Positions 6,427 to 30,877 of a stretch of 64,000 bases of DNA are shown here, one piece after another. The stretch is from Prorocentrum cordatum (taxonomy: Eukaryota > Sar > Dinophyceae > Prorocentrales > Prorocentraceae). Under the pieces are notes generated by a model that was not told where the DNA came from, did not search any database, and saw only the letters and a list, made by a program, of their open reading frames with translations. Numbering within the stretch: the first letter of the stretch is position 1; each line of letters starts with the position of its first letter. The position numbers were made by a program, and so were the translations under genes. The stretch covers positions 75,001 through 139,000 of the forward strand of contig CAUYUJ010000348.1 in NCBI GenBank assembly GCA_963575745.1. The letters run 5' to 3'.

Positions 6427-6594
6427 GGGCCCTGGGAACGAACATGTGGATCATCACGCTCTTGCGAACCTTCTCTGTGCCAAACACAAACGTTAGCCAG
6501 CGTCCCAATGTTTCGAGCAATACACGGTCTGCAACCGATGCGGGACAACCAATGTGGTGCAATCTACGTAGTGCAAGCTGCGTGGTTCAATTTA

Positions 6595-7190
6595 TGGTAT
6601 AAAATCCACTCTGCTGAACTTGAAGTCGTCATCCCCACTGCTCGCGCAAACATCCCACCCACCCACCCGCAACTTGGTTTGCAAAACCTGTTAAGACCGA
6701 CTACGACGACACCGACGACAACGACTAGAACGACACCGACGACGTCTCCGACGACTTCGACGACGACAACGACGCCGACGCCGACGACGACGAAGACGAC
6801 GACGACGCCAACGAAGGCGACGACGAGGGAGGAGGAAGGACGACGACGGCGACAACGACGACAACGACGACAACGACGAGGGAGGAGGGAGGACGGCGAC
6901 GACGCGAACGACGACGAAGGAGGAAGGACGGCGACGCCGACGACGACAACGACGAGGGAGAAGGGAAGACGACGACGACAACGAGGACGACGACGGCGAC
7001 GAAATAGGAGGGACGACGACGAGACGCCGACGACGGACGACGACGACGACGACGGGAGGGAGGAGGAAGGACGACCACGGCGACAACGACGACGGAAACG
7101 ACCACGACGCCAAAGAGGACGACGACGACGAACACGAGAAAAGACAGAGGACGACGTAGGCGACGACGATGACGACGCGGGAGGAGGGAG

Positions 7191-7221
<31 letters not shown>

Positions 7222-7803
7222 CTAGAGCGCGCGCGCGCACGCTTTTGTTGAACATCCGTGTTGCGAACCCTTGGGTTTTTGTGAATTTTTTGGACGCACG
7301 ATTTTGAAATCCTTTCCCAACCGATGGGTTTTGAAGGTTTTCGGCATACTCCCGCGACGACGCGCGCGTCTGCACTCCGTCCCATTTTTTGCAGAGGGTC
7401 CTCGCGACAGCACACGCGCAAGGGCGTTCGACAGATTTCGACATGCGCGCGCGAAGCCCGTTTGGTAGCATTTTGTGAAAATCTTGAAAAACCTACGGTT
7501 ATCTTAAGATGTTGCAAGAGCTCGCGCGGAAGTTTTTGTTAGCAAATGAGTGTTGCGAAACCATGTGTTTTTGTATGCGTTTTGGAAACTCGATTGCGAA
7601 ACCCTTCCCGCACCGAATGACTTTGAAGGATTTCGGCATGCGCGCGCGACGACGCGCGCGCGTGCGCACTTCGTCCCATGGTTTGCAAGGGATTCGTGAA
7701 AAAGTGCGATGATAGAACAAAAAATGTCACCGCATAGTGTTTTTTTGGTTACAAGGGAACCTCAGGGGGGGGGGCCCGGCCTGGCTGGGATGATATGATT
7801 TCA
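6595..7803 (+). repeat. family P composite repeat, copy a
   Basis: Module order: head (CTTGAAGTCGTCATCCC, CAAACATCCCACCCACCC, GCAACTTGGTTTGCAAAAC); a CGA/ACG triplet tract at about 6690-7230; then two subunits centred on CGCGCG-ACGA-CGCGCG dyads; then the tail CACCGCATAGTG, ACAAGGGAACCTCAGG, CTGGGATGATATG. The same order recurs at 17.5-21.0 kb. The copy is cut at 7804 by a TIR-1 element. Confidence 0.8.
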
Positions 7804-8911
7804 TATCCCACCAGCCCTCTGGGCGTAGGTGGTCTAGAGCAGATCCTCTTCCACCCCTCCCTCTTCCCCCTTGGGGAAGGGTTTACCCCTCCCCCTACCC
7901 CCTCCCCTGGACGGGGGGGGCCGCGGCGCGCTGGAGCGTCCAAGGTGGCCAAATATGGCTTCAAAAGCGCCTCAGAGAGCCCAAGATGAGCTCCAAGACG
8001 GTCAGAGATAGCGCAAGATCGCTGACGATGGCTTCCAAGATGCTCCAAGAGGCCCCAAGATGATCCCAAGACGGCTCCAAGTGGCCAAAGAGCTCCCTAA
8101 GGAGGCCCCGACGAGGCCAACATCGCCCCCAAACCTGAGGGAAAACAATGTGTTTTGCGTTCTCGCCTTTTCGCTTCCGATGGACATCCGAGGCCTCAAT
8201 ATGGCTCCAAGATGGCCCAAAAGGGCCCCACAAGAGGCCCAACAGAGCCCCAAGACGGCCCCCAAAGCGCCCAAGAGCGCTCCAAGAGCGCTCCAAGAGG
8301 GGCCCAAGAGGCGATTTATGGGGCTCCCGCGGGGGGAGGCTAATTGGAGCTCCCCTCTTGTTTGATCGATCTCCTCCAAGATGGCCCCAAGAGCGCCCCT
8401 ACAGCCCCCAAGAGCGCCCCAAGAGCGCCCCAAGAGGCGCCAAGACGTCCCCAAAAGGCGCCCAAGAGGCCTCCAAGAGGATCCCAGGAGACCCCCAAGA
8501 AGCCTCAAGAGGATTTCCGAAAAAAGGCATTCAAGACGCTTCTGGCTCTTCGGTTCGCCGTCCTCTTCCTCTTCCTCTTCCTCAACCACCTCTTCCTCTT
8601 CCTCCCTCCTCCTCCTCATCCCCCTCCTCCTCCTTCTCCTCCCTCCCTCTGCTCCTTATCCTCCTTCTCGTCCTCCTCGTCCTCGCCCTACTCCATATCC
8701 TCCTCATTCTCCTCCTCCTCCTCCTCCTCCTCCTCCTCCTCCTCCTCTTCCTCCTCCTCCTCCGACTCCGACGACGACGGTTCCTCTTCCATCCTCCCCC
8801 TCTCGGGGTCTGTGACAGCTTCCCCCGCCCTTTGTTATTCTGCCTGCTCCCCGACTTCCCTGATCACCTCAACTCCCCTGAGCATCGTTTCTGGATGGGC
8901 TGGTGGGGATA
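7804..8911. mobile_element. TIR-1 inverted-repeat element, copy 1
   Basis: The left end TATCCCACCAGCCC and right end GGGCTGGTGGGGATA are inverted copies differing by one extra base. The left subterminal region is a pyrimidine-rich block (CCACCCCTCC, CCCCTACCCC). The middle is hundreds of bases of CCAAGAGG / CCAAGATGGCC variants, then CTC-rich DNA before the right end. No transposase is visible, so it would be non-autonomous. Copies 2 and 3 share both ends and the internal order. Confidence 0.7.
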
Positions 8912-11607: not shown

Positions 11608-12956
11608 TCATGCAAAGCTTGCTTCTGCGACGGAGAAGAGGTGCGCACTTTGCTCATTCAGGCCAGATACGTGAAGAAGCGATGCACGGTGGACACATTC
11701 CTCCGCGGGCGTCGCTGCCTCCTGATGATCATCCTCTCCCAGCAATCCTCCGACATCGAATCCAGCATGCCCAAGGTGCTTGACGTAGAAGTTCAAGTAA
11801 GTGATGCCCTGCTGCGTGTGTCCATGCGCAACTTTGATTTGCACCTTCCCAAACATTAACCACTTCGGACTTTCGTCGGACACAACCTGAGCTTGAAATC
11901 GGAGACCGCCGGCATGCTTCTCCTCCACCCACGACCCCGTCACGTTCAAGTCTTGAAAATACATGTCAGTGCATTGTCCACCCAATTGACTCGCCTCGGC
12001 CTCTACACGAAGCATAACATTCTTCTGCCTTCCACGAGGGATGTTGATCAGAACGTGGTTGCCTGGCTTCATCAAATCGAACCTCTGACCCAGAACATTT
12101 GCCAGGTGGGGATCGCCAGTGGCAGCCACACCGCCAGCTGCGCCCGCCATGGGAGCTCCAGGAGGAAACGTCGGCTGTGGCGTCGGCCATCCTGGAGGAT
12201 ACGTCGGGCTAGGCGTCGGGCTGGGCGTTGGGAAGGACGTCGGGAAAGGCGTCGGGTAGGCGTGGGGAAGGCCGTCGGGTACGCCGTCGGGTATGGCGTC
12301 GGATCGGGTATCGGGTACGGGTATGGGTACGGCGTCGGGTATACTCGGTCGGGTCGGGTATGGCGTCGGGTACGGCGTCGGGTAGGCGTCGGGTACGGCG
12401 TCGGGTAGGCCGTCCGTCGGGTACGGCGTCGGGTACGTCGGATGGCGTCGGGTAAGGCCGTCGGGTACACCGTCGGGTATGGCGTCGGCGTCGGGTACGG
12501 CGTCGGGTATGGCGTCGGGTACGGAGTCGGGTACGTCGGAGATGGCGTTGACGTGTCGTACACTCTCAATGAGCTCACTTGATCGTTGCCACACACTCCA
12601 TGACAACCAACGCCCTCGTAGGAGCAAGCCCAGCCGTAAAAATTTGAGTGCTCGTAGATCACCACGCGACAGGCGTCCGAATGGATGTACAGAGATGAAT
12701 ACTGGTCGTTATGGCTGCTGCCAACCCAACCATGCGAACCGACCCCGTATGTGGCAGAGAAGCCACCGCCACAGCCATGCTGATACATCGTCACAGCACA
12801 AGTGGCACCGTTGCTGCTGTTGCTGCTGATGCGACTCGACCCCGCCGCCGCCTCCTCATCGCTCACGGCACTGCCGTTTGGCACGCTCGTCGCCCGCTGC
12901 ATACCAGAAACTCCGCGCAGCCCGAGAACCACGGGGAGCCAACCCTTGACTGCCAT
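11608..12956 (-). pseudogene. crystallin-like / PTPY linker / VWD-like secreted protein retrogene, unit 2
   Basis: ATG at 12956, 83 bp after a perfect spliced-leader relic. The N-terminal hydrophobic stretch resembles a signal peptide. A beta/gamma-crystallin-like segment follows, with Cys and Tyr-rich motifs (GGGFSATYGVGSHGW, CRVVIYEHSNFYGWACSYEG). Next is a Pro-Thr-Pro-Tyr linker on a 12-nt repeat, then a VWD-like domain starting [15 protein letters not shown] and ending at 11608. The crystallin frame runs correctly into the linker (SSLRVYDTSTPSP). Indels inside the 12-nt repeat then shift the frame more than once before the VWD-like part, so no intact product is encoded as read. Assembly or sequencing error in the repeat is possible. 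Confidence 0.75.
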
Positions 12957-14147: not shown

Positions 14148-15582
14148 TCATGCAAAGCTTGCTTCTGCGACGGAGAAGAGGTGCGCACTTTGCTCATTCA
14201 GGCCAGATACGTGAAGAAGCGATGCACGGTGGACACATTCCTCCGCGGGCGTCGCTGCCTCCTGATGATCATCCTCTCCCAGCAATCCTCCGACATCGAA
14301 TCCAGCATGCCCAAGGTGCTTGACGTAGAAGTTCAAGTAAGTGATGCCCTGCTGCGTGTGTCCATGCGCAACTTTGATTTGCACCTTCCCAAACATTAAC
14401 CACTTCGGACTTTCGTCGGACACAACCTGAGCTTGAAATCGGAGACCGCCGGCATGCTTCTCCTCCACCCACGACCCCGTCACGTTCAAGTCTTGAAAAT
14501 ACATGTCAGTGCATTGTCCACCCAATTGACTCGCCTCGGCCTCTACACGAAGCATAACATTCTTCTGCCTTCCACGAGGGATGTTGATCAGAACGTGGTT
14601 GCCTGGCTTCATCAAATCGAACCTCTGACCCAGAACATTTGCCAGGTGGGGATCGCCAGTGGCAGCCACACCGCCAGCTGCGCCCGCCATGGGAGCTCCA
14701 GGAGGAAACGTCGGCTGTGGCGTCGGCCATCCTGGAGGATACGTCGGGCTAGGCGTCGGGCTGGGCGTTGGGAAGGACGTCGGGAAAGGCGTCGGGTAGG
14801 CCGTGGGGAAGGCAGTCGGGTACGCCGTCGGGTATGGCGTCGGATACTGCGTCGGGTACGGCGTCGGGTAGGCCGTGGGGAAGGCCGTCGGGTACGCCGT
14901 CGGGTATGACGTCGGATACTGCGTCGGGTACGGCGTCGGGTATGGCGTCGGGTACGGCGTCGGGTATGGCGTCGGGTACGGCGTCGGGTAGGCCGTGGGG
15001 AAGGCCGTCGGGTACACCGTCGGGTATGGCGTCGGGTACGGCGTCGGGTAGGCCGTGGGGAAGGCCGTCGGGTACACCGTCGGGTGTGGCGTCGGATACG
15101 GCGTCGGGTACGGCGTCGGGTACGGCGTCGGGTATGGCGTCGGGTACGGAGTCGGGTATGGCGTCGGAGATGGCGTTGACGTGTCGTGCACTCAATGAGC
15201 TCACTTGATCGTTGCCACACACTCCATGACAACCAACGCCCTCGTAGGAGCAAGCCCAGCCGTAAAAATTTGAGTGCTCGTAGATCACCACGCGACAGGC
15301 GTCCGAATGGATGTACAGAGATGAATACTGGTCGTTATGGCTGCTGCCAACCCAACCATGCGAACCGACCCCGTATGTGGCAGAGAAGCCACCGCCACAG
15401 CCATGCTGATACATCGTCACAGCACAAGTGGCACCGTTGCTGCTGTTGCTGCTGATGCGACTCGACCCCGCCGCCGCCTCCTCATCGCTCACGGCACTGC
15501 CGTTTGGCACGCTCGTCGCCCGCTGCATACCAGAAACTCCGCGCAGCCCGAGAACCACGGGGAGCCAACCCTTGACTGCCAT
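14148..15582 (-). pseudogene. crystallin-like / PTPY linker / VWD-like secreted protein retrogene, unit 3
   Basis: ATG at 15582 after a leader relic carrying one substitution. The signal-like and crystallin-like region is open. A 2-base deletion near 15195 (GTGCACTC, versus GTACACTCTC in unit 2) then shifts the frame. From 15191 a clean frame of 347 codons runs through about 40 PT[PAVQS][YF] units (residues 5-168) and the complete VWD-like domain (from GDPHL at residue 183) to a stop at 14148. Unit 3 therefore has the best-preserved linker and VWD part, and unit 2 the better domain junction. Such crystallin plus VWD combinations suggest an extracellular or cell-surface protein; function unknown. 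Confidence 0.75.
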
Positions 15583-17571: not shown

Positions 17572-17602
<31 letters not shown>

Positions 17603-17605
17603 GAA
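16728..17605. repeat. TA microsatellites around unique DNA
   Basis: (TA)n-type runs at 16728-16770, 17058-17092 and 17565-17602. Between them a 16860-17050 stretch contains a CAATCC/GGATTGCAAT inverted pair. Nothing coding was supported at 17093-17530. Confidence 0.7.
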
Positions 17606-19510
17606 ATTATACTATCCCAGGGGGAAGCGATAAGTCCGGGGGGGGGGGGGTAGAGTCTATTATCTTTTTAGAAAGGAGCATCTACGTCGTGCAATCTATA
17701 TTTTACAAGTTAGATTGTGCAATATTTGTGGGGCAGTCGATGTGCTGCAATCTACGTTAAGCAACCCACGTTGTTCAGCAACGGTGGCGCAACACACGTG
17801 AGGCAATATATGATGCGGTGCGCACTCTATGTTGTGCACCCGACGTGGTGCAACACGTGTGCTGTTGATTATGTGCAGACTGTATTGATATGATGGAACG
17901 TATGCGGTGCAGTCGACGCGTTGCAATTTATGTGGCCGGTCTATGTTGTGCAATCGCAGTGACAAAATGTGTGCGGAACAATCTGCGTGGCGCAATATAC
18001 GCGGTGCAAGTTATAGTGAGAGGCCTACGTGGTGCAATTTATGTGGTGCAACTAATTTCTGTTCGCAGTGAGTTGTCCACTCCACTGCTCGCGCAAACAT
18101 CCCACCCCCCCACCCGCAACTTGGTTTGCAAAATCTCTCAAGACCGTGACGGTGGGTACCACATGGCGCTTGGCAACAACAGCGACGCCGACGACGACAG
18201 CGACAACGACGATGACGACGCCGCCGACAACGACTACGACGACACCGACGACGTCTCCAACGACTTCGACGACGCCGACAACGACGACGACGACGACACC
18301 GACGACGACGACGACACGACGCCGACGACGACGACGATGACAACGACGACGACGATGACGACGCCGACGACGACGATAACGACGACACCGACGACGACGA
18401 CGACGTCAACGACGCCGACGACGACGACGACGACGACGGCGGCGACGACGACGACGCCGACGTCGACGACGACGAAGACGACAACGACGCCGACGCCGAC
18501 GACGACGACGAAGACGACGACGACGTCGCCAACGAAGACAACGAGGAAGGAGGGAGGACGACGACGGCGACAACGACGACAACGACGAGGGAGGAGGGAG
18601 GACGGCGACGACGCGAACGACGAAGAAGGAGGAAGGACGGCGACGCCGACGACGGCAACGACGAGGGAGGAGGGAAGACGACGACGACGACAACGACGAC
18701 GACGACGACGAAATAGGAGGGACGACGACGAGACGCCGACGACGGACGACGACGACGACGAGGGAGGAGGAGGAAGGACGACCACGGCGACAACGACGAC
18801 GGAAACGACCACGACGCCAACTAGGACGACGACGACGAACACGAGGAAAGACAGAGGACGACGTAGGCGACGACGACGACGACGACAACGACGCGGGAGG
18901 AGGGAGGACGGCGACGACGACGACGACGACGCAAGAGCGCGCGCGCACGCTTTTGTTGAAAATCCGTGTTGCGAAAACTGTGTTTTTGTACACTTTTGGA
19001 CGCACGATTTTGAGATCCTTCCGGAACCGATGGGTTTTGAAGGTTTTTGGCATACGCCCGCGACGACGCGCGCGTCTGCACTTCGTCCCATGTTTTTGCA
19101 GAGGATTCTCGCGACGGCACACGCGCAAGGGCGTTCGACAGATTTCGACATGAGCGCGCGCGACGCCCGTTTGGTAGCATTTTGTGACAATCTTGAAAAA
19201 CCCATGGTTCCCTTAAGATTTTGCAAGAGCTTTCGCGGAAGTTTGTTTAGCAACTCTGTGTTGCGAAACCCTGTGTTTTTGCATGTTTTTTGGAAACTCG
19301 ATTGCGAAATCCTTCCCGCACCGAAGGTTTTTGAAGGATTTCGGCATGCGCGCGCGACGACGCGCGCGTGTGCACTTCGTCTCATTTTTCGCAAGGGATT
19401 TGTGAAAAGTGTTATGCTAGAACAAAAAAGTCACCGCATAGTGTTTTTTACAAGGGAACCTCAGGGGGGGGGAACCCGGCCTGGCCGGGATGGTATGATT
19501 TCATATTTAG
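17531..19510 (+). repeat. family P composite repeat, copy b
   Basis: Starts at GGGATGGACGAGT, then AGTCCGGGGGGG-TAGAGTCTATT and a block of TGTGGTGCAAT variants (17690-18060). The conserved head follows at 18070-18130, a long CGA/ACG tract at 18180-18930, two dyad subunits and the tail. It ends in TTTAGGATGGACGAG, where copy c begins head-to-tail. The triplet tract explains the long Asp/Thr/Arg/Val frames. Confidence 0.85.
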
Positions 19511-21050
19511 GATGGACGAGTGGTCAGAATCATCTATGATTTACAGACCCGAAAGGGGAGCTGATAAGTCGGGGGGGGTAGAGTCTATTCTCCTTTTAGA
19601 AAAGAAGATTCACTCTGCTGAACTTGAAGTCGTCATCTCCACTGCTCGCGCAAACATCCCACCCACCCTCCCGCAACTTGGTTTGCAAAACCTGTTCAGA
19701 CCGACTACGACGACACCGACGACAACGACTAGGACGACACCGACGACGTCTCCGACGACTTCGACGACGACAACGACGCCGACGCCGGCGACGACGAAGA
19801 CGACGACGTCGACGCCAACGAAGGCGACGACGAGGGAGGAGGAAGGACGACGACGGCGACAACGACGACAACGACGACAACGACGAGGGAGGAGGGAGGA
19901 CGGCGACGACGCGAACGACGACGGAGGAGGAAGGACGGCGACGCCGACGACAACGACGAGGGAGGAGGGAAGACGACGACAACGACGACGACAGCGGCGA
20001 CGAAATAGGAGGGACGACGACGAGACGCCGACGACGGACGACGACGACGACGTGGGAGGAGGAGGAAGGACGACCACGGCGACAACGACGACGGAAACGA
20101 CCACGACGCCAAAGAGGACGACGACGACGAACACGAGAAAAGACAGAGGACGACGTAGGCGACGACGGACGACGACGACGCGGGAGGAGGGAGGACGGCG
20201 ACGACGACGACGGCAACGACGAGGGAGGAGGGAAGACGGCGACGACGACGACAACGACGACGACGACGAAATAGGAGGGACGACGACGAGACCCCGACGA
20301 CGGACGACGACGAAGACGAGGGAGGAGGAGGAAGGACGACCACGGCGACAACGACGACGGAAACGACCACGACGCCAAAGAGGACGACGACGACGAACAC
20401 GAGGAAAGACAGAGGACGACGTAGGCGACGACGACGACGACGACAACGACGCGGGAGGGGGGAGGACGGCGACGACGACGACGACGACGACGAATCCGTG
20501 TTGCAAAACGTTGTGTTTTTGTAGGTTTTTTGGACGCACGATTTTGAGATCCTTCCGGAACCGATGGGTTTTGAAGGTTCTCGGCATACGCCCGCGACGA
20601 CGCGCGCGTCTGCACTTCGTCCCAGTTTTTGCAGAGGATTCTCGCGACGGCACACGCGCAAGGGCGTTCGACAGATTTCGACATGCGCGCGCGCGAAGCC
20701 CGTTTGGTAGCATGTTGTGAAAATATTGAAGAAAAATCTATGGTTTTGTGAAGATTTCGCAAGAGCTTGCGCGGAAGTTGTTTTAGCAACTCGATGTTGC
20801 GAAACCCTGTGTTGTTGTATGTTTTTTGGAAACTCGATTGCGAAATCCTTCCGGCACCGAAGGTTTTTGAAGGATTTCGGCATGCGCGCGCGACGACGCG
20901 CGCGTGTGCACTTCGTCTATGTTTTGCAAGGGGTTCGCGAAAAAGTGCTATGTTAGAACAAAAAAGTCACCGCATAGTGTTTTTTACAAGGGAACCTCAG
21001 GGGGGGAACCCGGTTTGGCTGGGATGATACGAGTTCATATTTAGGATGGA
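19511..21050 (+). repeat. family P composite repeat, copy c
   Basis: Same module order as copy b. The CGA/ACG tract at 19705-20490 carries an internal duplication of about 300 bp (the CGAAATAGGAGGGACGACGAC block occurs twice). Tail CACCGCATAGTG is at about 20968-20980. Confidence 0.85.
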
Positions 21051-22155
21051 CGAGTGTGCAGAATATATATATATATATATAAATAAATGTATGTACGTAT
21101 TTGTATACACACATACACACATACATACATATATATATATATATATCAAATCGTACTATCCCAGGGGGACGCGTTAAGTCCGGGGGGGGGGGAAGGTTTA
21201 TTCTCTTTTTGGAAAGGAGAATCTATGTGGCGCAATTGAGTTTAGCAAACGAGTTGACACATCCCATGCTCTTGCAAACATCCATTCCGCCCACCCACCC
21301 GCAACTTGGTTTGCAAAACCCATGAAATGGCGCTTGCGATACATGCTTGGCGTTGGCTGGTGCGACTCTGTGGCCGCGCCAACCCTAGCACGCGCGCGCA
21401 GCGGCCAGCTAGTTTGGCGCCACCGACGCGGCCGCGATGGCGCTGACCGCTGGGCACATCCCAGCGGGCACTTCAGTGCGAGTCGGCGACTTGGGCGGGC
21501 GCGGTATCATGGCAACGTCGATCACGGTAGAAACGATGATGGTAATAGCGATGTTGGTGACGATGTTGACGACGACGACGGCGCGGCCAATGCGGGCGCC
21601 GATGCTGATCACGCTGGCGACCATGACGGCGCCCTCGCATCGGTGATGAAGGTTTAGGAAGGAGTTGGGACATGCGCGCGCGGCCGACGCGCGAGAGTGG
21701 CCCGCATGGTACTATTTGACACGGACCGTGCCCCCCCCAGCACGCGCGCAAGGGCGCGCGAATGATGTCGGCATGCGGCGCCAGAGGCCCGTTTGGCAGA
21801 ACTCCATGAACATGTTGAAAAACCACTGGTCTTTTTTTGAGGATTCGCAAGAGCGTGGGCGCACGCTTTTTTGAGACCTAATGTTGGGAAACATTTCTGT
21901 GAGTGTTCTAGCCTGCGCGCGCGTCGACGCGCGCAGTTTGTCCTCTTTTTTGCATAAAGGATTCTCGCGACGGCACGCGCGCAAAGGCGCTCGAACGATG
22001 TCGACATGCGCGCGCGAAGCCCGTTTGGTAGCACGTTCTAAAACTGTTGAACAAGCTTCGGTTTTCTGAAGAATGGGCACAATCGCGCAAGTGTATTTGA
22101 ACATCCGCGTTGCGACGCCGTTGTTTTATATAAAAAATAATTTGTGACACTTGAT
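21051..22155 (+). repeat. family P composite repeat, copy d, left part
   Basis: Begins with TTAGGATGGACGAG and a TA/CA microsatellite. It has the head at 21240-21320 and a non-triplet spacer shared with 28870-29090 (GGCGCGGT-TCATGGCAACG), then dyad subunits. It is interrupted at 22155 by the tyrosine-recombinase retrotransposon and resumes at 28421. Confidence 0.85.
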
Positions 22156-22262
22156 GGCCCTCTATTTTCTCCAGCACAAGCTTGAGAGGGCGCTGGGGCA
22201 AGGCATCGGCAACAGTGACAACAGAACGCAGCAGCATCGAACAAGTAAAAAACTCTGGGCCT
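22156..22262 (-). repeat. split direct repeat B2 (3-prime end of element)
   Basis: 107 bp; matches B1 at 22401-22507 except for a compensating one-T difference and a few substitutions (GGGGCAAGGCATCGG versus GGGGCGAGGCACCGG). A 63-bp unique spacer (22263-22325) separates it from A2. Confidence 0.9.
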
Positions 22263-22325
22263 GTTAAATTCTGAATTCGTGCGGGAATGAAAGGCGGAAG
22301 AGCAGAGAAGGGGGGGAGGGTCGGG

Positions 22326-22400
22326 CGGCTCGCGCGGCTGATTAGAGCCAACGGTTGCGGATCACCAAATTGACAGGCCAACCCGATAAACTATCTCCAA
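22326..22400 (-). repeat. split direct repeat A2
   Basis: 75 bp identical to A1 at 28346-28420, beginning CGGCTCGCGCGGCTGATTAG on the plus strand. It directly abuts B1. Confidence 0.95.
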
Positions 22401-22507
22401 GGCCCTCTATTTTTCTCCAGCACAAGCTTGAGAGGGCGCTGGGGCGAGGCACCGGCAACAGTGACAACAGAACGCAGCAGCATCGAACAAGTAAAAAACT
22501 CTGGGCC
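22401..22507 (-). repeat. split direct repeat B1
   Basis: First B copy in element orientation, lying directly after the methyltransferase-like frame and joined without spacer to A2. Confidence 0.9.
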
Positions 22508-22526
22508 ATATTCACGTCCAGATTCA

Positions 22527-23288
22527 TTAGTGTACTGGTAATACCGCCAAGCATTTACAAATGTCCCACAACCGAGAGAGCCTTCGACTATTCGACGCAT
22601 CTACAAGAGACTTGGCAAGGGTCTTGCACAGCGCCTTGGGGCAAGGCTGGGCTACTGCAGTCCAAAACTGGCCACCGGGGGCCTTGCCCTCTAACACTTG
22701 GCGAGGCCTCTGGGACCTCTCACAAATGCCTTTACCGTGGCACTTTCGCCCAAGAAGCTCCGGAGAAACGTGCCAGAGGCGAAGCCGTGTTCGTTTGCGC
22801 CACGGCTCACCCCACATACAAAAGTCAGTGAAAACATCGTGAACATTGAGGAGCCTACCGAGACCTAGCACAGGCGGACACAGCCAAAGACGAGAAAAAG
22901 CGGGATTCTCGAGCCCTCCAGGGATCCCTCTGGTGTGAGCTAGCTAAGCAAGCACGACAGAGACACGCATCAAACGGTTTCCCAACTGCACTCTCTTTTG
23001 ATCGGGACCGGAGAGGCCAGGCAGTCCAAGAGGGAACTCTTTGGACCTCAAGGGCCCTGGCCCAGACTTGGTGTGCCTACGGGCCAACGAGAAAGAAGCG
23101 CATGGAGTTCCTAACCACAAGATGCTCACCTCACCGCTGAGAATCCAACCTTTCAGAACTTCGACACTGGGCGCCTTGGTGAGATCAAACTGTGCTCCTC
23201 GAATGATGTCCCACTCGACCGTGGGGGCGCCATTGGCCCGAAGCGCCGAGGCGAGACGGCCTGACCCAGCGAAGACCTCGACGGCGAC
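22527..23288 (-). pseudogene. C5-cytosine-methyltransferase-like domain of the retrotransposon
   Basis: Motifs in order: cofactor loop VEVFAGSGRLASAL (motif I, 23282-23241); E-W-D about ten residues further; GTPCASFS with the catalytic-type Pro-Cys near 23102 (motif IV); LENPAFSRLW near 22913, where classical C5 enzymes have ENV; and DFCMWGEPWRKRT (motif VIII-like). It shares a frame with the RNase H. An in-frame TAG at 22944-22946 splits it between motifs IV and VI. No target-recognition domain was recognised, so activity even before the mutation is open. DIRS elements carry an N6-type methylase, and C5 methyltransferases have been described in other eukaryotic retrotransposons, so a role on element DNA is plausible. 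Confidence 0.75.
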
Positions 23289-24247
23289 CCTATCTCGCCC
23301 CAGGCGCACTCTGTGGAGCGTCGCGGTGAGCAGCTGGCGAACCGCGGCGGCGGTCTCTGCCGGCTGAGTCGCAGCCGCTCCTGCGCCACGGGCGGCGCCT
23401 GCGCCACTTGCAGCGCCAGGCGGCCGTGCGTCTCGTAACTCCGCGCGGACAGGCGGGCTAGCCCCCTGCCTCTCTTGGCCACCTCCTCGAGCGACCTCCT
23501 TCCCACGATTCGATCGTGGCTTTCTCCTCCTTGCCGTAGGCAGTACAGCGTGGCACCGATGCTCTGAAGACCCAGCACCGCCAGCGCGCTCTCGAGCTCC
23601 TCGCGCAGCTGCACGCAGCCGAAACTCCACAGCGGCCCGCGGAGCTCCCACCGCGCCTTCAGATCCCTGAGCACGGGGGTAGGCCAATGGAGCTCGGGCA
23701 CGTCCAGCGGCAGCGAGTCGTCTAGCTCGACAGTCTTGCTGGGCACCAGCAGCTCCTCTGGATGAAGCACCAGCGTCCACCAGTGAAACCCGCCCTGCAG
23801 CCCGGCCGCAGGCGGCACCAGCTGAAACGCCTTCATCGCCAGGAGCTCTCCGGGCCGAAGGTAGCCGTGGAACATGAGGCAGCGAGCACACGCCATCGCC
23901 ACCTCCCGCTTCAGCAGCAGGAGCTCCAGCACGCCGCAGAGCACCAGCCCGGGGAGCGGCGGGCGAGAGTGGCCAGGCCGCTTGCGCTTCCAGCCCAGCA
24001 GCGCCCGGCTGCTCCTCGGCAACACCACCCGCAGGGGCCGCCCCAGCGCTGGTCGCGCCCAGAGCACCGCCGACAATACCTTCGCAGCCCTGTTCGGCCG
24101 CACTCCCTGCGCGAACTCGTCGTTCAGGTACTGCAGCAGTGCGTCGACCCACCCCAGCGCGCTCCAGCTGGGCAGCGCCTCCACTCCGAGACAGCTGCAG
24201 AGGCCACTGAGGAACTTCAGGTAGCTCTGCGGGGTAGAGGGCCCCAT
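23153..24247 (-). pseudogene. tyrosine recombinase of the retrotransposon
   Basis: Open frame of 364 codons whose last ~70 overlap the methyltransferase frame. N-terminal helical core-binding-like region (residues 5-60: TPQSYLKFL...VDALLQYLNDEF). First catalytic Arg is in FHGYLRPGELLAM (R131). The second box is TLYCLRQGGESHD (R238, H244), where the usual first His of the H-x-x-R box is Tyr. The likely nucleophile is Tyr271 in RSYETHGRL. It would cut and join a circular cDNA at the target. The frame differs from the RNase H before it. The YR of DIRS-type elements may be a separate overlapping gene, so the shift need not be a mutation, but no convincing start context separates these options. 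Confidence 0.8.
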
Positions 24248-24499
24248 CGCCTCCAGCTACAGTCCTGACGCGCTCGAGCCCAGGAGGCGGTGCCACTGCA
24301 AGGCCGTCGGCCTCCGGGTCGCGGCAGCGGGCCGAGGGCGTCGGACACAGGTCCTCGCCCGAGCCGAGAGCGCGCGGCCCGGCAAGCCCAGGAGGCGCCT
24401 CCGCCCAAGGCCGCTCGCCGGCGCCCTCGGAGCAGGCAGCGGCTGCGCACTCAATGCGGCCGCCGCGAGCCGACGGCGCTCCATCGCCCCGCAACCGGC

Positions 24500-25355
24500 G
24501 GGGCTCGAACCGCCTTGAAGGACCGTCGGCGGGGTTCCACTCTGAAGGGATCCATCGCACTGACACACGACAAGACGATGCGAGCTGAAGAGCGGTGAAG
24601 TGTCTCAACTGAGCGAGGATGGGAAAGTCCGAGGCTCTTCCTTTTGCAACTGCACAGTAAATACACATGCTGTCTGACAAAAATAGAAGCCTGCACCCAT
24701 GATGCGCCACTCGCCGCACCTGCCGTCGCATGGCCCATAGCAGCGCTTCGCCCTCCAGAAGATGGATGGGGGCGCGATGACGCCACCGTCTCGAGGCCAC
24801 GGTCTTCCACGAGGCGGCCTTGCAGAAGTCAGACGGCACGTCGGGGAACGGAGAGTCGCCGACGGCGCCTTCACGCAAGGCGCGTGCACGCGAGCCTTCG
24901 GCCACCAGCTCGCTCTCCTTGAACCTCCAGCGCTCTCTGACTCGGCCGATGCGCCCGACGTCGCGTGGGTCCGCGGAGCGCTCCACCGCGCCCAAGCCAG
25001 TCAACGAGGCGTCCACGGCCATCACGCCGGGGGCCCAGGCGCCGCGCAGATCCGCCCACACCAGCGGCAGCAGTGCTCGCATCCAAACCAGCTCTCGGCG
25101 CACCGAAGGCCAGAGCCGCACGCGCCGAGTGTAGCACTTGCTGACAAAGATGTAGGATGCACTGAGCAAGCTGAGCACCTCGCGTCGTAGCAGCAGCACG
25201 TGCGTCAAATGCCCGATCAGCCGCTCTAGCTCGGCTCCCGTCAGGAGGGGGTGCTTCAGGATATAGTCCAGACTCAAGACCAGCCTCCAGAACCGCTTGG
25301 GCGCGATGTGAATCGCCCCCTTCACCCCGTCGATGTGGAAACCGAGCAGTTCCAC
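24500..25355 (-). pseudogene. RNase H domain of the retrotransposon
   Basis: Follows the RT, one frame over. Residues 1-100 after the junction are the connection region (ELLGFHIDG, LTGAELERLIGHLTHVLLL). RNase H acidic residues are seen in VMAVDASLTGLG (D115), the LLEGEALLW helix, FLSDSMCIYCAV (D228) and the closing IPSEWNPADGPSR (D277), the order expected for the retroelement RNase H fold. It removes the RNA strand during cDNA synthesis. The frame stays open past the domain through the recombinase region, but residues about 300-680 there read as Ala/Gly/Arg-rich shadow and are not claimed as protein. Confidence 0.8.
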
Positions 25356-26698
25356 GTCAACCTGCGGCCCGAGATGTCGTGAGTACTTAGACCGCGTCCC
25401 CTCAGCTGCCTCTCCATCGAGTCGCCGTCGAGCTGGACTGCCTCCTTTACAGTCCCCAGCGAGGCGAAGTTGTCGATGTACAGGAGAGCAGCGGGCTCAC
25501 GCCCGGCGACAGCAGGCGCGCAGCGGCGATTGCAGATCCAGCGGCGGGCCCCTTGCGGACCAGCCCGCAGCAGCTCCTCGTTCGCCGCCTGCGCCAGCGC
25601 CACGGCCCAGCTCCAGCCCATCGGCACCACGCGCACCTGGAAGTGAACGAAGTCGTTCCCGGGCGGGAACAAGCGGCGCAGGCTCCGCGGCAGCAGCTTC
25701 CGAGGCACCGCCGGTAGTGCGAAGTCGGCCCTCAGGTCGTCAGGCAGCAGGAACTGGTAGTAGCAATTCTCGACATCGCCCTCACTGACCCACAACCGCT
25801 GGCCGGCAGGCAACTCAAGATCACCCAGGGCCTCAGGAGAAGCCAGGGCAACACTATCGGGAGGTACAAACTGCGAGTTCGTCCTTCGGGGATCGAAGAT
25901 GACCCGCAACGAGCCGTCCTTCTTACGCACAAAGAAGACTCCCACAAAACTGCGAACCTCAGTCGCCGGCTCGACGACGCCCGATTCGCATGCAGACATC
26001 AAAAACTCGGCGTACTTGCTGGGCGACCTGGTCAGGATAGGATCCATCGCAGGGCCCAACCCGTCCACCTCTGCCGCCACGTCCTTTGTGCACACTGCTG
26101 GTAGCCGAATAGCGCGGCCACTATCCTCCGGCAACTTCTGGTAGTGGTCGGGCAGGCAACTGACGAGGTCGATCGCCTGGTTACCGACCGCTGGCAGGGC
26201 AAGCCTGCCGCGCTGGTAGGTCGCGAACTCTCCGGCGACAACACCTGCAACGGCGTAGCCGGAACCGCAGCCCCGAAGCGCAGGCCACACTCCCGAGGCG
26301 GTGAGGTCGTCGGGCGGCGGCGGCACGGCAAAGTAGGCCCGGGCCAGGCTGGCCACAGCCTGGCGCTGGATAGCACCTGGCAGCACTTTGGGGCCCCACT
26401 CCTCGCCGCGGCCGCCCAGAACGTTGAGCGTCGAGATGCCGTCCTGCAGCCGCGCCTCGGCAGCCCGTCGGCGCGAGCGCCGCCGATCCGCACAGCGCGA
26501 AACACCCAGGCCCGCTGGCGAGAGTCCCTCCAGGAGATCAGCCAGACAGCGCCCCGATGGCAGCGGCAGCAAGTCCCGAGCCCAGTCGAGGCCTTCACCT
26601 GCAACACCGAGGCGGCCCGCCATCCTCCTCAAGCGGGCAGCCCTCCCCTCTGCAGAATGGGCGGCGGCCGGGGGCCTCCGCCGCCCGTGGCAGCTCAA
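25322..26698 (-). pseudogene. reverse transcriptase of the retrotransposon
   Basis: 458-codon frame. A 230-residue N-terminal extension precedes the polymerase. RT motifs follow in order: FVGVFFVRKKDGSLRVIFDP (251-270), motif A GDVENCYYQF with Asp308, VPMGWSWAVALAQ (358-370), and motif C LLYIDNFASLG with YIDN at 407-410 (25469-25480) where most RTs have YxDD. The frame fails about 35 codons later, and RNase H homology (GFHIDG) continues in another frame, so one base has been gained or lost near 25375, or frameshifting occurs. The frame opens with TTG, not ATG, directly at the stop of the upstream Gag-like gene, suggesting expression by frameshift or re-initiation. Confidence 0.85.
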
Positions 26699-27966
26699 GC
26701 AGCGTCACCCCCCGGCCCGCCACCATTCTTCTTCGGGCGCCTGGGGGGCTTCTCGTCGTTCTTGCCGCTTCCAACACCTGGAGCAACCTCGGTCGAGCGG
26801 GCCAGCTGCCGCTCCCCCTTCGCCTTGCGGCGCTCCTTGAGCACCGCGCTCTCCTCGGACAGCTTCTGGGAGATCCACGACTCTAGGGCAGGCGCCACAA
26901 GCGCGCGACCATGGCGGCCCTCCTCGCCCATGAACAGCCTGTCGTTGTCGAGGTGGCCGCTGTCGCCACCCGCAGTCGCCGCGATTAGCATGCGGGCGTA
27001 CCTCTCCTCGAGCAGCTGGTATCGCCTGCCTGCAAGCTCCAGCGACGCCAACTCGCCGAAGTTCAGCTGGTCGTACGTCAGCGCGTACTCGAAGAGGCGG
27101 CTCAAGGACTCGCGCTCTCCGACGCCCCAATCGCTGGGGCCCAGGCCCAGCAGCTGTCTCCACCAGAAGTGGCGGCGCACGGGCGTGAGCTCCTGCCGAG
27201 CGATCTCCCGCGCCAGCCACTCCGCCGTCCTCGGGCCGCTGATCGGCCAGTCCTCGAACGCCGTCGTCGTGGTCAGCGATGCGGCCTCCTTGTAGGAGCG
27301 ATGCCGCTGGCTGGCCGTCTCGTACTTCACCGGGAGTGTGCGCAGCTCGTTGGACACAGGCTCCGCTTCCTCCACTTCCCTCGGCGTGGGCATCTGCTGG
27401 CCCGGCCGGAAGAACGAGCAGGACACGAAGACGTCGCCGACCAGGGCCACTCCACGATCTCCTCGATGGCAGCCCGCCTCCAGCTCCGCGTCGCCGACGC
27501 GCTCGCCCAGCCGAGCACCGCCGCGGTTCTCCGAATGCCGCCAACCTCCATCGCCCGAGCTAGGCACACCCTCCAGCGCCAGCGGCGGGGGCGCGCCCGC
27601 GGGCGGCGGCAGCGGCGGAGTAGCGGCCAGGCCCAGCTCACGCCTCTCCTGCAGGGCCAGCTCCGCGCCATCCGTCTGGAGCCTCAAACTCTCCTCGCGG
27701 CGCAGCGGGCCCTGGGACGAGTTCCTGAACAGGTGTGTAGGCCCACGGTCCCACCCGATCGGCAAGCCTCCCATGGGGCCCAGCAAGACGAGGCTCTCGA
27801 CGCCCTCCCTGAGGTCCTCAAGATATATGTCTCTCTCGGGTGTGGTCACCACCCACGAGCCTTCGTGCACGTGCGCACACAGAAGGCGCTCATGCCACAA
27901 CAGCTCGCGCGGGTCCTCGTCGTAAGAGACGAGCACTCGCTGGCCCTGACGAAGATGCTCTGACAT
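26695..27966 (-). CDS. Gag-like protein of the retrotransposon (ORF2)
   Basis: ATG at 27966, 423 codons, stop TGA overlapping the start of the RT frame by a few bases. N-terminal part has LVSYDEDPRELLWHERLL and WVVTTPERDIYLEDLREG. The middle is Pro/Gly-rich (residues 120-170). Residues 240-390 are a conserved-looking helical region (FEDWPISGPRTAEWL, RRHFWWRQLLGL, LEERYARMLI). The tail is basic (ERRKAKGERQLA, RRPKK). No zinc knuckle is present. By position before pol it is the likely Gag equivalent. This is the longest intact gene of the element. Confidence 0.65.
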   Translation of the reverse strand: MSEHLRQGQRVLVSYDEDPRELLWHERLLCAHVHEGSWVVTTPERDIYLEDLREGVESLVLLGPMGGLPIGWDRGPTHLFRNSSQGPLRREESLRLQTDGAELALQERRELGLAATPPLPPPAGAPPPLALEGVPSSGDGGWRHSENRGGARLGERVGDAELEAGCHRGDRGVALVGDVFVSCSFFRPGQQMPTPREVEEAEPVSNELRTLPVKYETASQRHRSYKEAASLTTTTAFEDWPISGPRTAEWLAREIARQELTPVRRHFWWRQLLGLGPSDWGVGERESLSRLFEYALTYDQLNFGELASLELAGRRYQLLEERYARMLIAATAGGDSGHLDNDRLFMGEEGRHGRALVAPALESWISQKLSEESAVLKERRKAKGERQLARSTEVAPGVGSGKNDEKPPRRPKKNGGGPGGDAA

Positions 27967-28330
27967 CGTTTCCGTCGGTCAGGTACGGCGTCTCCGCGCT
28001 CTCCGACGTGGCACGACACTCCGAGCGACTCCAGCACCACCAGCCACAGGATGCAGCAGCGGCGGATCCTGCCAGGAAAGCCAGCACCGCCACCAGGAGG
28101 ACCACCAGTCCAGGGTAGCCCGAACACTCTGGGGGCGGGCACGGCGCCGGCACCGTGAGGTTGGCGGGCCCGCACCTTTGCAGCTGACCTTCCAACAGGC
28201 GCAGCAGCTCACGGTCCACCGAGAAACCGTCTCCCAACTCGACCTGGCAGGTACAGCGCTGGCCGTGCCACAGGCTGCCCAGGTGCGCCAAGCCGCCGGC
28301 GCCAGCTGCGGCAGCCCTCGCCCACTCCAT
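27890..28330 (-). CDS. small Cys-rich protein with one membrane segment (ORF1)
   Basis: ATG at 28330, only 16 bp inside repeat A1; 146 codons, overlapping the next gene by 77 nt in another frame. Features: Cys-rich N-terminal part (RCTCQVELGDGF, QRCGPANL, CPPPECSG), then one strong hydrophobic segment at about residues 74-93 (GLVVLLVAVLAFLAGSAAAA), then CGWWCW. The last 25 residues lie in the overlap. No family was recognised. Alternatively it may be the N-terminal part of the Gag-like protein joined by frameshift, since its frame reaches past the downstream ATG. Confidence 0.5.
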   Translation of the reverse strand: MEWARAAAAGAGGLAHLGSLWHGQRCTCQVELGDGFSVDRELLRLLEGQLQRCGPANLTVPAPCPPPECSGYPGLVVLLVAVLAFLAGSAAAASCGWWCWSRSECRATSESAETPYLTDGNDVRASSSGPASARLLRRGPARAVVA

Positions 28331-28345
28331 AGAGGGGCGAACTAC

Positions 28346-28420
28346 CGGCTCGCGCGGCTGATTAGAGCCAACGGTTGCGGATCACCAAATTGACAGGCCA
28401 ACCCGATAAACTATCTCCAA
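28346..28420 (-). repeat. split direct repeat A1 (5-prime end of element)
   Basis: 75 bp identical to A2 at 22326-22400. Its outer edge (CTCCAA) abuts family P sequence TTTGAAAGC. Confidence 0.95.
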
Positions 28421-28750
28421 TTTGAAAGCATTTCGACATCGGATGTTTTTTGAAAGATTTCGACATGCGCTCGCGACGACGCACGCGTGTGCACTTCGCT
28501 TCCTTCTCGCAAGGCGTTCATGGAAATTGCCAAAACTTGATAAACGAGTGCGCGCGCATAGTAATGTTTTGCAAAGGATGGCGGGGGGGGGGGGGTCGAG
28601 CCCGGCTCGGCTGGGATGGTATACGTGTATATATATATGTATATATACACATATACATATACATATGTACATATACATATACATATACGTATACATACAT
28701 ATCTATATACACATACCTACATACATACACATATATATATATAAATATAT
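28421..28750 (+). repeat. family P copy d, right part
   Basis: Resumes the unit cut at 22155: TTTGAAAG...TTTTTTGAAAGATTTCGACATGCGC, then the CGACGACGC dyad and alternative tail (AAACGAGTGCGCGCGCATAGT, GTCGAGCCCGGCTCGGCTGGG), followed by a TA/CA microsatellite. Confidence 0.85.
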
Positions 28751-29868
28751 TTCGGATGGACGATGGGGGCAGACTCATATGTAAATTGCAACAAAAAGGT
28801 GTACAGATAAAAAACCGGGGGGGATATTACTACTTGTCAAGGAAGGAGGGTATATCTATATATATTGAGCAATGGATGTGGTGCGACCGACTTGGGGCAC
28901 ATCCCAGCGGGCACTTCAGTGCGCGTCGGCGAATTGGGCAGGCGCGGTGTCATGGCAACGCTGACAACGGTAGACACGATGATGCTAGTGGCGATGCTGG
29001 TGGCGACGTTCGCACCGACGAGGGCGCGGCCAGTGCGGGTGCCGATGCTGGTCACGCCGGCGACGATGACGGCGTCCTCGCGTCGGTGATGGAGGTTTCC
29101 AAAAGAGTTCGACATGCGTGCGCGGCCGACGCGCGAGACTGGCCCGCATGGATTTTTTGACGCGGATCGTGCCCCCCCAGCACGCATGCAGGGGCGTGCG
29201 AATGATGTCGGCATGCGGCGCCAGAGGCCTGTTTGGCAGAACTCCATGACAATGCTGTGAAACCTACACTTTTCTCAAGGATTCGCAAGAACGCGCGCAA
29301 ACTTTGTTGGAAAACAGAAATTGCGAAACCGTGTGGTTTTGAATGTATTTGGGCCGTTCGGTTTTGAATTTGCTACGAAACCAAAAGTGTTTGCAGCATG
29401 TCGGCATGCGCCCGCGACGACGCGCGAGTGTGCACCACGTCCAAGTTTGCAAAGGATTCTCGCGACGGCACGCGCGCAAGGGCGTTTGAACGATTTCGAC
29501 ATGCGCGCGCGAAGCCCGTTGATTTGTCAATGTTGAAAAACCTATGGTTTTCCTCAGAAATGCACAAATGCTGGCACGCTTGTGTGGTTTTGTTTGTTTG
29601 AAAACCCGTTTTGCGAAACCATGTATGTTTATATGTGTTCTGGACACTCAATTTTCAAAACTCCTTCCGGAACCAACGTTTTTTTTAGGATTTCGGCATG
29701 CGCGAGCGACGACGCGCGCGTGCGCACTTCGTCTCGTTTTCTGCAAAGGATTCATACAAACTGAGAAGGTTTGATAAACGAGTGCGCGCGCATAGTCGTT
29801 TGTTGCAGAGGACGGCGGGGGGGGGGTCGAGCCCGGCTCGGCTGGGAGTGTACAAATTCATATCTAAT
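28751..29868 (+). repeat. family P composite repeat, copy e
   Basis: Starts at CGGATGGACGATG. It carries the spacer module CATCCCAGCGGGCACTTCAGTG...ATGGCAACG at 28904-29095 (also at 21450-21655), then four dyad subunits with CGCGCGACGACGCGCGCG-type cores and the alternative tail at 29780-29850. Confidence 0.85.
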
Positions 29869-30877
29869 ATGCACGATGTGGCAGAATCATATGTAGCTTG
29901 CAACCCCAAAAATGTACCAATAAAACAGCGGGGGGGGGGTAGAGTCTACTTTCTCGTTGAAAAGGAGGACTGATTGTTACAAACGAGTTGACACATCCCA
30001 TGCTCGTGCAAACATCCCACCCACCCACCCGCAACTTGGTTTACAAAACCAATGCGGCGGCGATTGCGAGGAGTAAAGAGTTCGACATGCGCGCGCGGCC
30101 GACGCGACAGAGTGGCCCGCATGGTATTGTTTGTCACGAGTCGTGCCCCCCCTCAGCACGCGTACAGGGGCGTGCGAATGATTTCGGCATGCGGCGCGAG
30201 AGGCCCGTTTGGCAGAATTCCATAAACATGTTGAAACCGAAAAAAACCATGATACTTTCAAAATTCGCAAGAGCGCGAGCGCAGGCTTTTGTGAAAACTG
30301 ATGTGGCAAAACCATGTTTTTCCTTGGTTTCGGGAAGCCCGGTTTTGACATCCTTCCGAAACCTAAGGTTTTTGACTGATTGCGGCATGCGCACGCGACG
30401 ACGCGCGCGTGCGCACGTCGTCCCATTCGCTGCAAAGGACTATTGCGACAGCACGGGCGCAAAGGCGTTCAAACGATTTCGACATGCGCGCGCGAAGCCC
30501 GTTTGGTAGCATGTTTAGCAAATTTTCAAAACCAATGTTATTCTTAAAGGTTCGCAAGAGCGCGAACGCAAACTTATTGTTGACCATCCGTGTTGCGGCA
30601 ACTCATATTTTCACATGAGTTTGGACATTCGTTTTTGAAATCCCAACGAAATCGAAGGTTTTTGAAAGATTCCCGCATGCGTGCACGACGACGCACGCGT
30701 TTGCATTGTCTCATTTTTTGCAAGGGATTCTTGCACACTGAGTAGTTTTGATAAGCGAATGCGCGCGCACATACATATACATATATATATATATACACAT
30801 ATATATATGTACACATATCCAGAGGATGACCAGGGGTGGCGATACAGGCCTGTTTGGCACGGTACGAATTCATATTC
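29869..30877 (+). repeat. family P composite repeat, copy f
   Basis: Head (ACGAGTTGACACATCCCATGC...GCAACTTGGTTTACAAAAC) at 29980-30050, no triplet tract, then several dyad subunits, ending in a TA/CA microsatellite at 30765-30820 and AGGATGGATGGACGATG. Confidence 0.85.

Follow-up and report, generated by a model that had tools for sequence, protein, structure and literature searches.

The 64,000-nucleotide stretch of Prorocentrum cordatum DNA analyzed here (hereafter the window) very probably carries one damaged copy of a multi-copy tyrosine recombinase (YR) retrotransposon of the order DIRS, of the type with split direct repeats. The element lies on the minus strand, runs from 28420 to 22156 (6265 bases), and has its repeats in the order A1-genes-B1A2-linker-B2. 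This reading draws on sequence data of several kinds, namely the anatomy and ends of the element, its other copies, an empty site, concordant variants in the repeats, and signs of selection. A preliminary description made from the sequence alone had the minus-strand orientation and the dinoflagellate host group right, and its claim that the two A repeats are identical held at 75/75 bases. The features are given below in the order in which they occur in the element.

28346..28420, minus strand: A1 repeat, 5' end of the element, 75/75 bases identical to A2
27890..28330, minus strand: open reading frame (ORF) 1, 146 amino acids counted from the first ATG, one predicted membrane segment
26695..27966, minus strand: ORF2, 423 amino acids, in the position usual for Gag
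25322..26704, minus strand: N-terminal part of Pol with the reverse transcriptase (RT), domain at about 25384-25930
24400..25355, minus strand: RNase H region of Pol, acidic D, E, D, D at about 25013, 24749, 24674 and 24527
23153..24256, minus strand: YR open frame of the window copy, nested in Pol in a different frame
22527..23396, minus strand: C-terminal part of Pol with the C5-methyltransferase-like domain, domain from about 23285 to 22574
22401..22507, minus strand: B1 repeat, 107 bases, abutting A2 exactly at 22401/22400
22326..22400, minus strand: A2 repeat, identical to A1, B1|A2 being the putative circle junction
22262..22325, minus strand: linker from A2 to B2, 64 bases
22156..22261, minus strand: B2 repeat, 3' end of the element, 106 bases

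The P. cordatum assembly (4.128 Gb in 21,875 contigs) was searched with the 3' end of the element (22156-22600), which retrieved at least 41 matches, 34 of them at 91-100% identity (the window included, and with two of the 34 in one copy) and seven at 77-79%. Besides the window, we compared the best 20 of these 41 matches with their flanks, as well as three of the seven diverged ones; ranking by the 3'-end match favours copies with complete ends. All 20 share the layout of the window element and align with it to both ends, except that the alignments of L020 and L021 stop a base or two short and that of L020 has an internal gap; the element ends given in the preliminary description hold. The A and B repeats are thus not a chance arrangement, since layout and ends are common to 20/20 other copies. 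The first 13 bases of A1, TTGGAGATAGTTT, are exact in 18 of the 20, and L019 and L026 each have a single substitution there. Pairwise identity among the 21 copies is 91.8-100%, and the nearest relative of the window copy is 97.3% identical to it. L017 and L018 are identical over the element, and their 5' flanks differ at 14/200 positions; the pair was treated as a duplicated site, which leaves 19 independent other sites, and L018 was left out when selection, sites and final distances were tallied. L030 and L031, which are partial, nested or diverged copies, took no part in later counts.

The other copies also settle the end of B2. The near-identity of the B repeats proposed in the preliminary description stands (two substitutions and a one-base length difference between B1 and B2 in the window copy), but the end it gave, 22262, overshoots by one base: in 21/21 copies B1 and B2 disagree at the position preceding GGCCC. 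The true end is 22261. With the boundaries drawn one base shorter, the linker measures 63 bases in 20 of the 21 copies and 62 in L019. L023 carries one extra A-linker-B unit in tandem (7515-8006 in element orientation), with an exact B|A junction and 1 difference in 246 from the neighbouring unit, and this unit could have arisen by unequal crossing-over or by integration of a small circle. Solo A-linker-B units were sought and rejected for most sites: at 38 of 46 A-linker sites (no more than 2 mismatches allowed), an A1-ORF1 boundary (listed with up to 3 mismatches) lies upstream on the same strand, in 37 cases within 5.7-7.1 kb and in one at 14.1 kb, and all 20 exact A-linker sites are among the 38. 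A-linker matches with 3 mismatches were excluded because a reversed control pattern gave 40 against 65 (up to 3 mismatches). Repeats occurring independently of the coding region, which the preliminary description had named as evidence against its own reading, are therefore ruled out for those 38 sites; the other eight have no detected boundary, most being of a diverged type that the A1-ORF1 pattern may miss, and solo units of the diverged type are possible.

Direct repeats and an RT are common to long terminal repeat (LTR) retrotransposons, and A and B might on that ground be pieces of ordinary LTRs in such an element or a similar one, inserted by a DDE integrase. We consider this extremely improbable, as the B1A2B2 block and A1 are not a pair of matching terminal repeats, a target site duplication of 3-8 bp was found at 0/20 sites (the window and the others, with L018 dropped), and no protease or DDE integrase family appears among the Pfam matches of the scanned ORFs at E values up to 1. 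The layout kept in 20/20 copies and the lack of a 3-8 bp duplication instead bear out the earlier assignment to the YR retrotransposons with split direct repeats.

The flanks of the window copy are members of a local repeat family, and six other stretches of the window span the joined flanks in alignments of 70-79% identity, providing an empty site. A seventh stretch starts three bases before the join, and the multiple alignment of all seven with the joined flanks is gap-free there. Across the 20 sites, two bases are shared between the flanks at four (1.4 expected). The 5' flanks have G at -3 and C at -2 in 12/20 each and G at -1 in 0/20, against a background of about 30% G and 30% C, and the 3' flanks have A at +1 in 10/20 and at +3 in 12/20, against a background of 20%. 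That a short core is shared by element and target at integration can fairly be inferred from this, since GCC is also the usual end of B. The 3' end of the L021 element is AT in place of CC, and its 5' flank ends in the same two bases, which would fit resolution of a two-base core in favour of the target.

On a second alternative, the A and B repeats are products of local duplication within a dead element and carry no information on replication. The extra unit in L023 is of a kind that unequal crossing-over can make, and the members of a repeat pair differ only a little less within a copy than between copies. We nonetheless judge this explanation very unlikely, because the layout is identical in 21/21 copies at 20 sites, because it recurs in L043, whose repeats match those of the window over no more than 8 bases, and because two subfamily variants each occur in both pair members of the same copies. 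If the members of a pair are rebuilt from each other, a subfamily change must show in both. At position 67 of A the rarer base is found in both A1 and A2 of L011, L022, L023 and L024 and in no other of the 21, and at the fifth base from the end of B it is L009, L013, L019 and the window, again four of the 21, that have the rarer base in B1 as well as in B2. Scored by alignment column, one of these four B-variant copies comes out as discordant, L013 having a two-base gap nearby. Most of the remaining repeat differences are private. The two concordant variants are as templated copying of the repeats would predict, and the proposal that B1|A2 preserves a circle junction is consistent with the data.

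In L027 and L028, Pol forms one frame of 1384-1385 codons, and in L012 and L013 it lies within longer open frames; copies with open frames thus exist, and the window copy is a damaged one. The preliminary description mentions neither this damage nor the nesting of the YR frame in Pol. The RT was recognized by RVT_1 on the window frame (E 1.6e-5, below Pfam's cut-off), has homologues in 11 proteins, and as a profile matches the solved polymerase 7sr6 (E 0.0029); the RT sequence alone retrieved nothing useful from the PDB. Relatives in the genome go down to 39% identity among the 97 matches listed, and none were found in scans of viral contigs or of prokaryote genomes. Motif C of reverse transcriptases is usually YxDD. 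In the window it reads YIDN (about 25470-25480), and its last position is N in 21/21 copies and I in L029. Among the aligned relatives, the same N is found in P0001, P0003, P0004, P0006, P0007, P0009, P0010, P0011, L043 and L044, while P0002 has I, P0005 has D, and P0008 is too short to reach the motif. The acidic D, E, D, D of the RNase H region are kept throughout the 22 aligned rows, apart from one substitution in L019, one in L015 and a gap in L010, and the region is in the same frame as the RT in L009, L025, L027, L028 and L043.

The nested frame is 483 codons long in L013, L027 and L028 (480 in L012) and lies wholly inside Pol in another frame. P0012 is 66% identical to it as it stands in the window. 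Aligned across families, it has the motif pattern Arg, Arg-x5-His, Tyr, with a box I Arg, Arg-His-Gly-Gly-x-x-His, and Tyr, and with exceptions in L044. The window copy deviates at two of the six tabulated positions; across the 22 rows, the position of the His that follows the box II Arg is occupied by H in 11, by R in 10 and by Q in one, and 19 rows have the Tyr. A tyrosine recombinase is the best reading of this frame, a reading that the profile searches do not prove: no Pfam match was obtained, the window frame has no PHROG match, and that of L013 reaches a PHROG integrase at E 0.16. Searching the PDB with the frame alone and with a two-sequence profile gave nothing useful, and no relative was found in the viral-contig scans, in a YR-protein search of phages, or in a comparison of the element DNA with phages.

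The methyltransferase domain at the end of Pol has C5 motifs I, IV (PC), VI (EN) and a VIII-like region (motif numbers as we presume them), and the cysteine of PC is present in 21/21 copies, with a gap in L029. A profile of 16 sequences matched five phage C5 methylases by hhalign (probability 94.7, E 6.2e-8) over an alignment spanning motif I to the VIII-like region, and matched three PF00145-type phage enzymes over motifs I to IV (probability 88.8, E 2.5e-6); two unrelated profiles used as negative controls gave 0.04 and 0.07. The preliminary call of a C5-methyltransferase-like domain thus holds. Motif I, PC, ENP-x-S and the RK-x-T-like region that follows align with the methylases of Javan126, CHPC577, Pumpjack, CHPC129 and ACM616_1, which are free-standing proteins, whereas the P. 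cordatum domain closes a retrotransposon polyprotein. Four of these five match PF00145 and the fifth does not. In the element, PF00145 was found neither in the L013 domain nor in the full L013 frame (E up to 1) nor in P0013 (E up to 5), and the domain has no credible Pfam, no NCBIfam and no PDB match, the best PDB hit of its profile being DNMT1 (E 0.26). MoeA_C on P0013 (Pfam, E 0.18) was taken as chance. PHROG methyltransferases were matched by P0013 at E 0.39 and 0.56 and by P0017, which has YR-like and methyltransferase-like parts within one protein, at E 0.0057. Scanning viral contigs with the domain gave no relative, and searching phages with a relative of it gave five matches at E 3-8 only, two of which pointed to the methyltransferases used as yardsticks. 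At least 129 PF00145 matches occur in the genome, a count for which 123 of 3988 candidates were scored, and the contig of the window has none of them; many, e.g., C15245:60405-61364, have similar scores and lie in frames of 383-478 codons. These matches suggest that repeats bearing a DNA methyltransferase (DNMT) exist in P. cordatum as in Symbiodinium.

ORF1 has a single strong hydropathy peak, its 19-residue maximum of 2.63 being reached by 0/2000 shuffles, in agreement with the membrane-segment ORF of the preliminary description. It has at least 132 matches in the genome, with relatives down to 31% identity, and its frame is five codons shorter at its end in many copies. ORF2 is open over its full length in 13/21 copies and has no match in PHROGs or NCBIfam; its only Pfam match, GCV_T (E 0.0069, below cut-off), was taken as chance. 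Omega was computed separately for changes shared by two or more copies and for singletons, using 20 copies (L018 and L029 dropped). The shared and singleton values are 0.21 and 0.47 for ORF1, 0.16 and 0.79 for ORF2, 0.31 and 0.89 for the RT, 0.35 and 0.69 for RNase H, and 0.27 and 0.54 for the methyltransferase domain, against 1.44-1.85 and 1.01-1.32 in shifted-frame controls (ORF1, ORF2, RT and methyltransferase). The shared changes, read from sequence as they are, show purifying selection on all five. Where Pol and YR overlap, the values are 0.81/1.08 in the YR frame, 0.72/0.77 in the Pol frame and 1.26/1.15 in the third frame, and stops (indels not counted) occur in 6/22, 1/22 and 22/22 rows, respectively. 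These figures weakly indicate constraint split between the Pol and YR frames, and purifying selection on the recombinase is likewise weakly indicated.

The same plan is found in a further family, represented by L043, whose Pol is 36% identical to that of L028. Its A repeats lie at 390-454 and 6646-6710 and its B repeats at 6571-6645 and 6752-6826, and it has ORF2, an ORF whose membrane peak reaches 2.47, a Pol of 1431 codons and a nested YR frame of 572 codons. In L044, B1, A2 and B2 are present, as are these Pol and YR frames; no A1 and no ORF1 turned up in the stretch of it examined.

Several observations weigh against the main reading of the window element. Its Pol is broken by a frame break near 25370, absent from the 20 other copies and L029, and by an in-frame stop at 22944-22946, found at that place in none of the 21 other rows. 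The RNase H region lacks a good profile match, with weak ones to a viral polymerase C-terminal family at E 0.064 and 0.23. The identity of the YR rests on its motifs and one modest profile match (P0012 against a PHROG integrase, E 0.0034), and hhalign against the lambda, HP1 and P2 integrases was not significant (E 0.43, 0.12 and 0.034 with three alignments, probabilities up to 1.5); in the alignment at E 0.034 the expected Arg residues line up, but its probability is 1.5. B pairs differ by 2.4 within a copy and 2.6-2.9 between copies, and A pairs by 1.1 and 1.3-1.9 (20 copies each). Three lower-ranked 3'-end matches span only 32-445, 52-445 and 152-445 of the query and may be truncated copies. 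Lastly, we infer, and do not observe, the RNA, the circle, the recombination, the methylation and the membrane role.

The replication cycle that we consider most likely would begin with an RNA running from A1 to B2 as the transcript of the element. Its translation would yield a membrane-anchored ORF1 protein together with ORF2 in the Gag position, a Pol polyprotein with RT, RNase H and the C5-methyltransferase-like domain, and a tyrosine recombinase read from the frame nested in Pol. The RT would then copy the RNA, using the internal B1A2 as the template from which both ends are rebuilt, and the product would be a closed circle with a B|A junction, which the recombinase would insert at that junction with no target duplication.

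Elsewhere in the window, the family of diverged, dispersed repeats that flanks the element was seen at about 6600-7700, 17600-20900, 21000-22100 and 28450-30800, with TA-rich simple repeats nearby. Two very similar minus-strand frames (11608-12708 and 14148-15191) have PTPYPT-like repeats and a GDPHL...GQRFDL stretch, which we take to resemble a von Willebrand type D domain.

Prior work already covers the layout, the model of replication and the presence of a DNMT in Pol (PMC5890265 and PMC6681497). The second of these papers presents the split-direct-repeat groups, in which RT/RNase H and YR frames often overlap, and reports a methyltransferase or hydrolase in some DIRS elements; the P. cordatum element resembles these groups in its A1 ... 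B1 A2 B2 order, its RT, putative RNase H and putative YR with overlapping frames, and its ORF1 in the Gag position. According to PMC5890265, SymbioDIRS-Dnmt3 of the coral symbiont Symbiodinium has the order A-coding-B-A-B, a DNMT in Pol with the RT, and a separate YR ORF; the DNMT genes of Symbiodinium were counted with PF00145, the element's methyltransferase is a Dnmt3, and the methyltransferases reported for DIRS elements outside Symbiodinium are Dam-like adenine enzymes, unlike the C5-like domain found here. The P. cordatum element could be a plain member of the SymbioDIRS-Dnmt3 group, with which it shares a dinoflagellate host, the A-coding-B-A-B order, a cytosine methyltransferase in the Pol frame with the RT, and a separate recombinase frame. 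We regard this as rather unlikely, as the methyltransferase domain is missed by PF00145, in contrast to the at least 129 matches elsewhere in the genome, and its best profile match is the phage C5-methylase group; the comparison with Symbiodinium was by published description only. The nesting of the YR frame inside Pol is a further difference from that description. The membrane segment of ORF1 and the YxDN motif may be others, the words transmembrane and YxDD both being absent from the main text of PMC5890265. In the literature searched, which left out most subscription journals, no report was found of this P. cordatum family or of a membrane ORF or YxDN in such elements. The suggestion of a distinct lineage in the preliminary description is reasonable in that L043 keeps the plan, the membrane ORF and the methyltransferase at 36% Pol identity; A-coding-B-A-B elements with a cytosine methyltransferase in Pol are as such not new, having been described for Symbiodinium (PMC5890265).

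More tentatively, and with some doubt on our part, the families may represent a deep dinoflagellate lineage of YR retrotransposons marked by a membrane-anchored ORF1, a YxDN RT and a phage-type C5 methyltransferase ending Pol, in which replication would take place attached to a membrane, and cytosines of the cDNA would be methylated before it integrates. If so, the tether would perhaps be the persistent nuclear envelope, and elements called DNMT-less through PF00145 would carry a cryptic methyltransferase. The standard family model does miss the conserved methyltransferase-like domain seen here, and counts of DNMT-free DIRS elements based on PF00145 may be too high. With its sharp ends, many copies and an empty site, the P. 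cordatum YR family offers, within a large dinoflagellate genome, a testbed for the split-repeat replication model, for circle integration, and for the role of element-borne methyltransferases.

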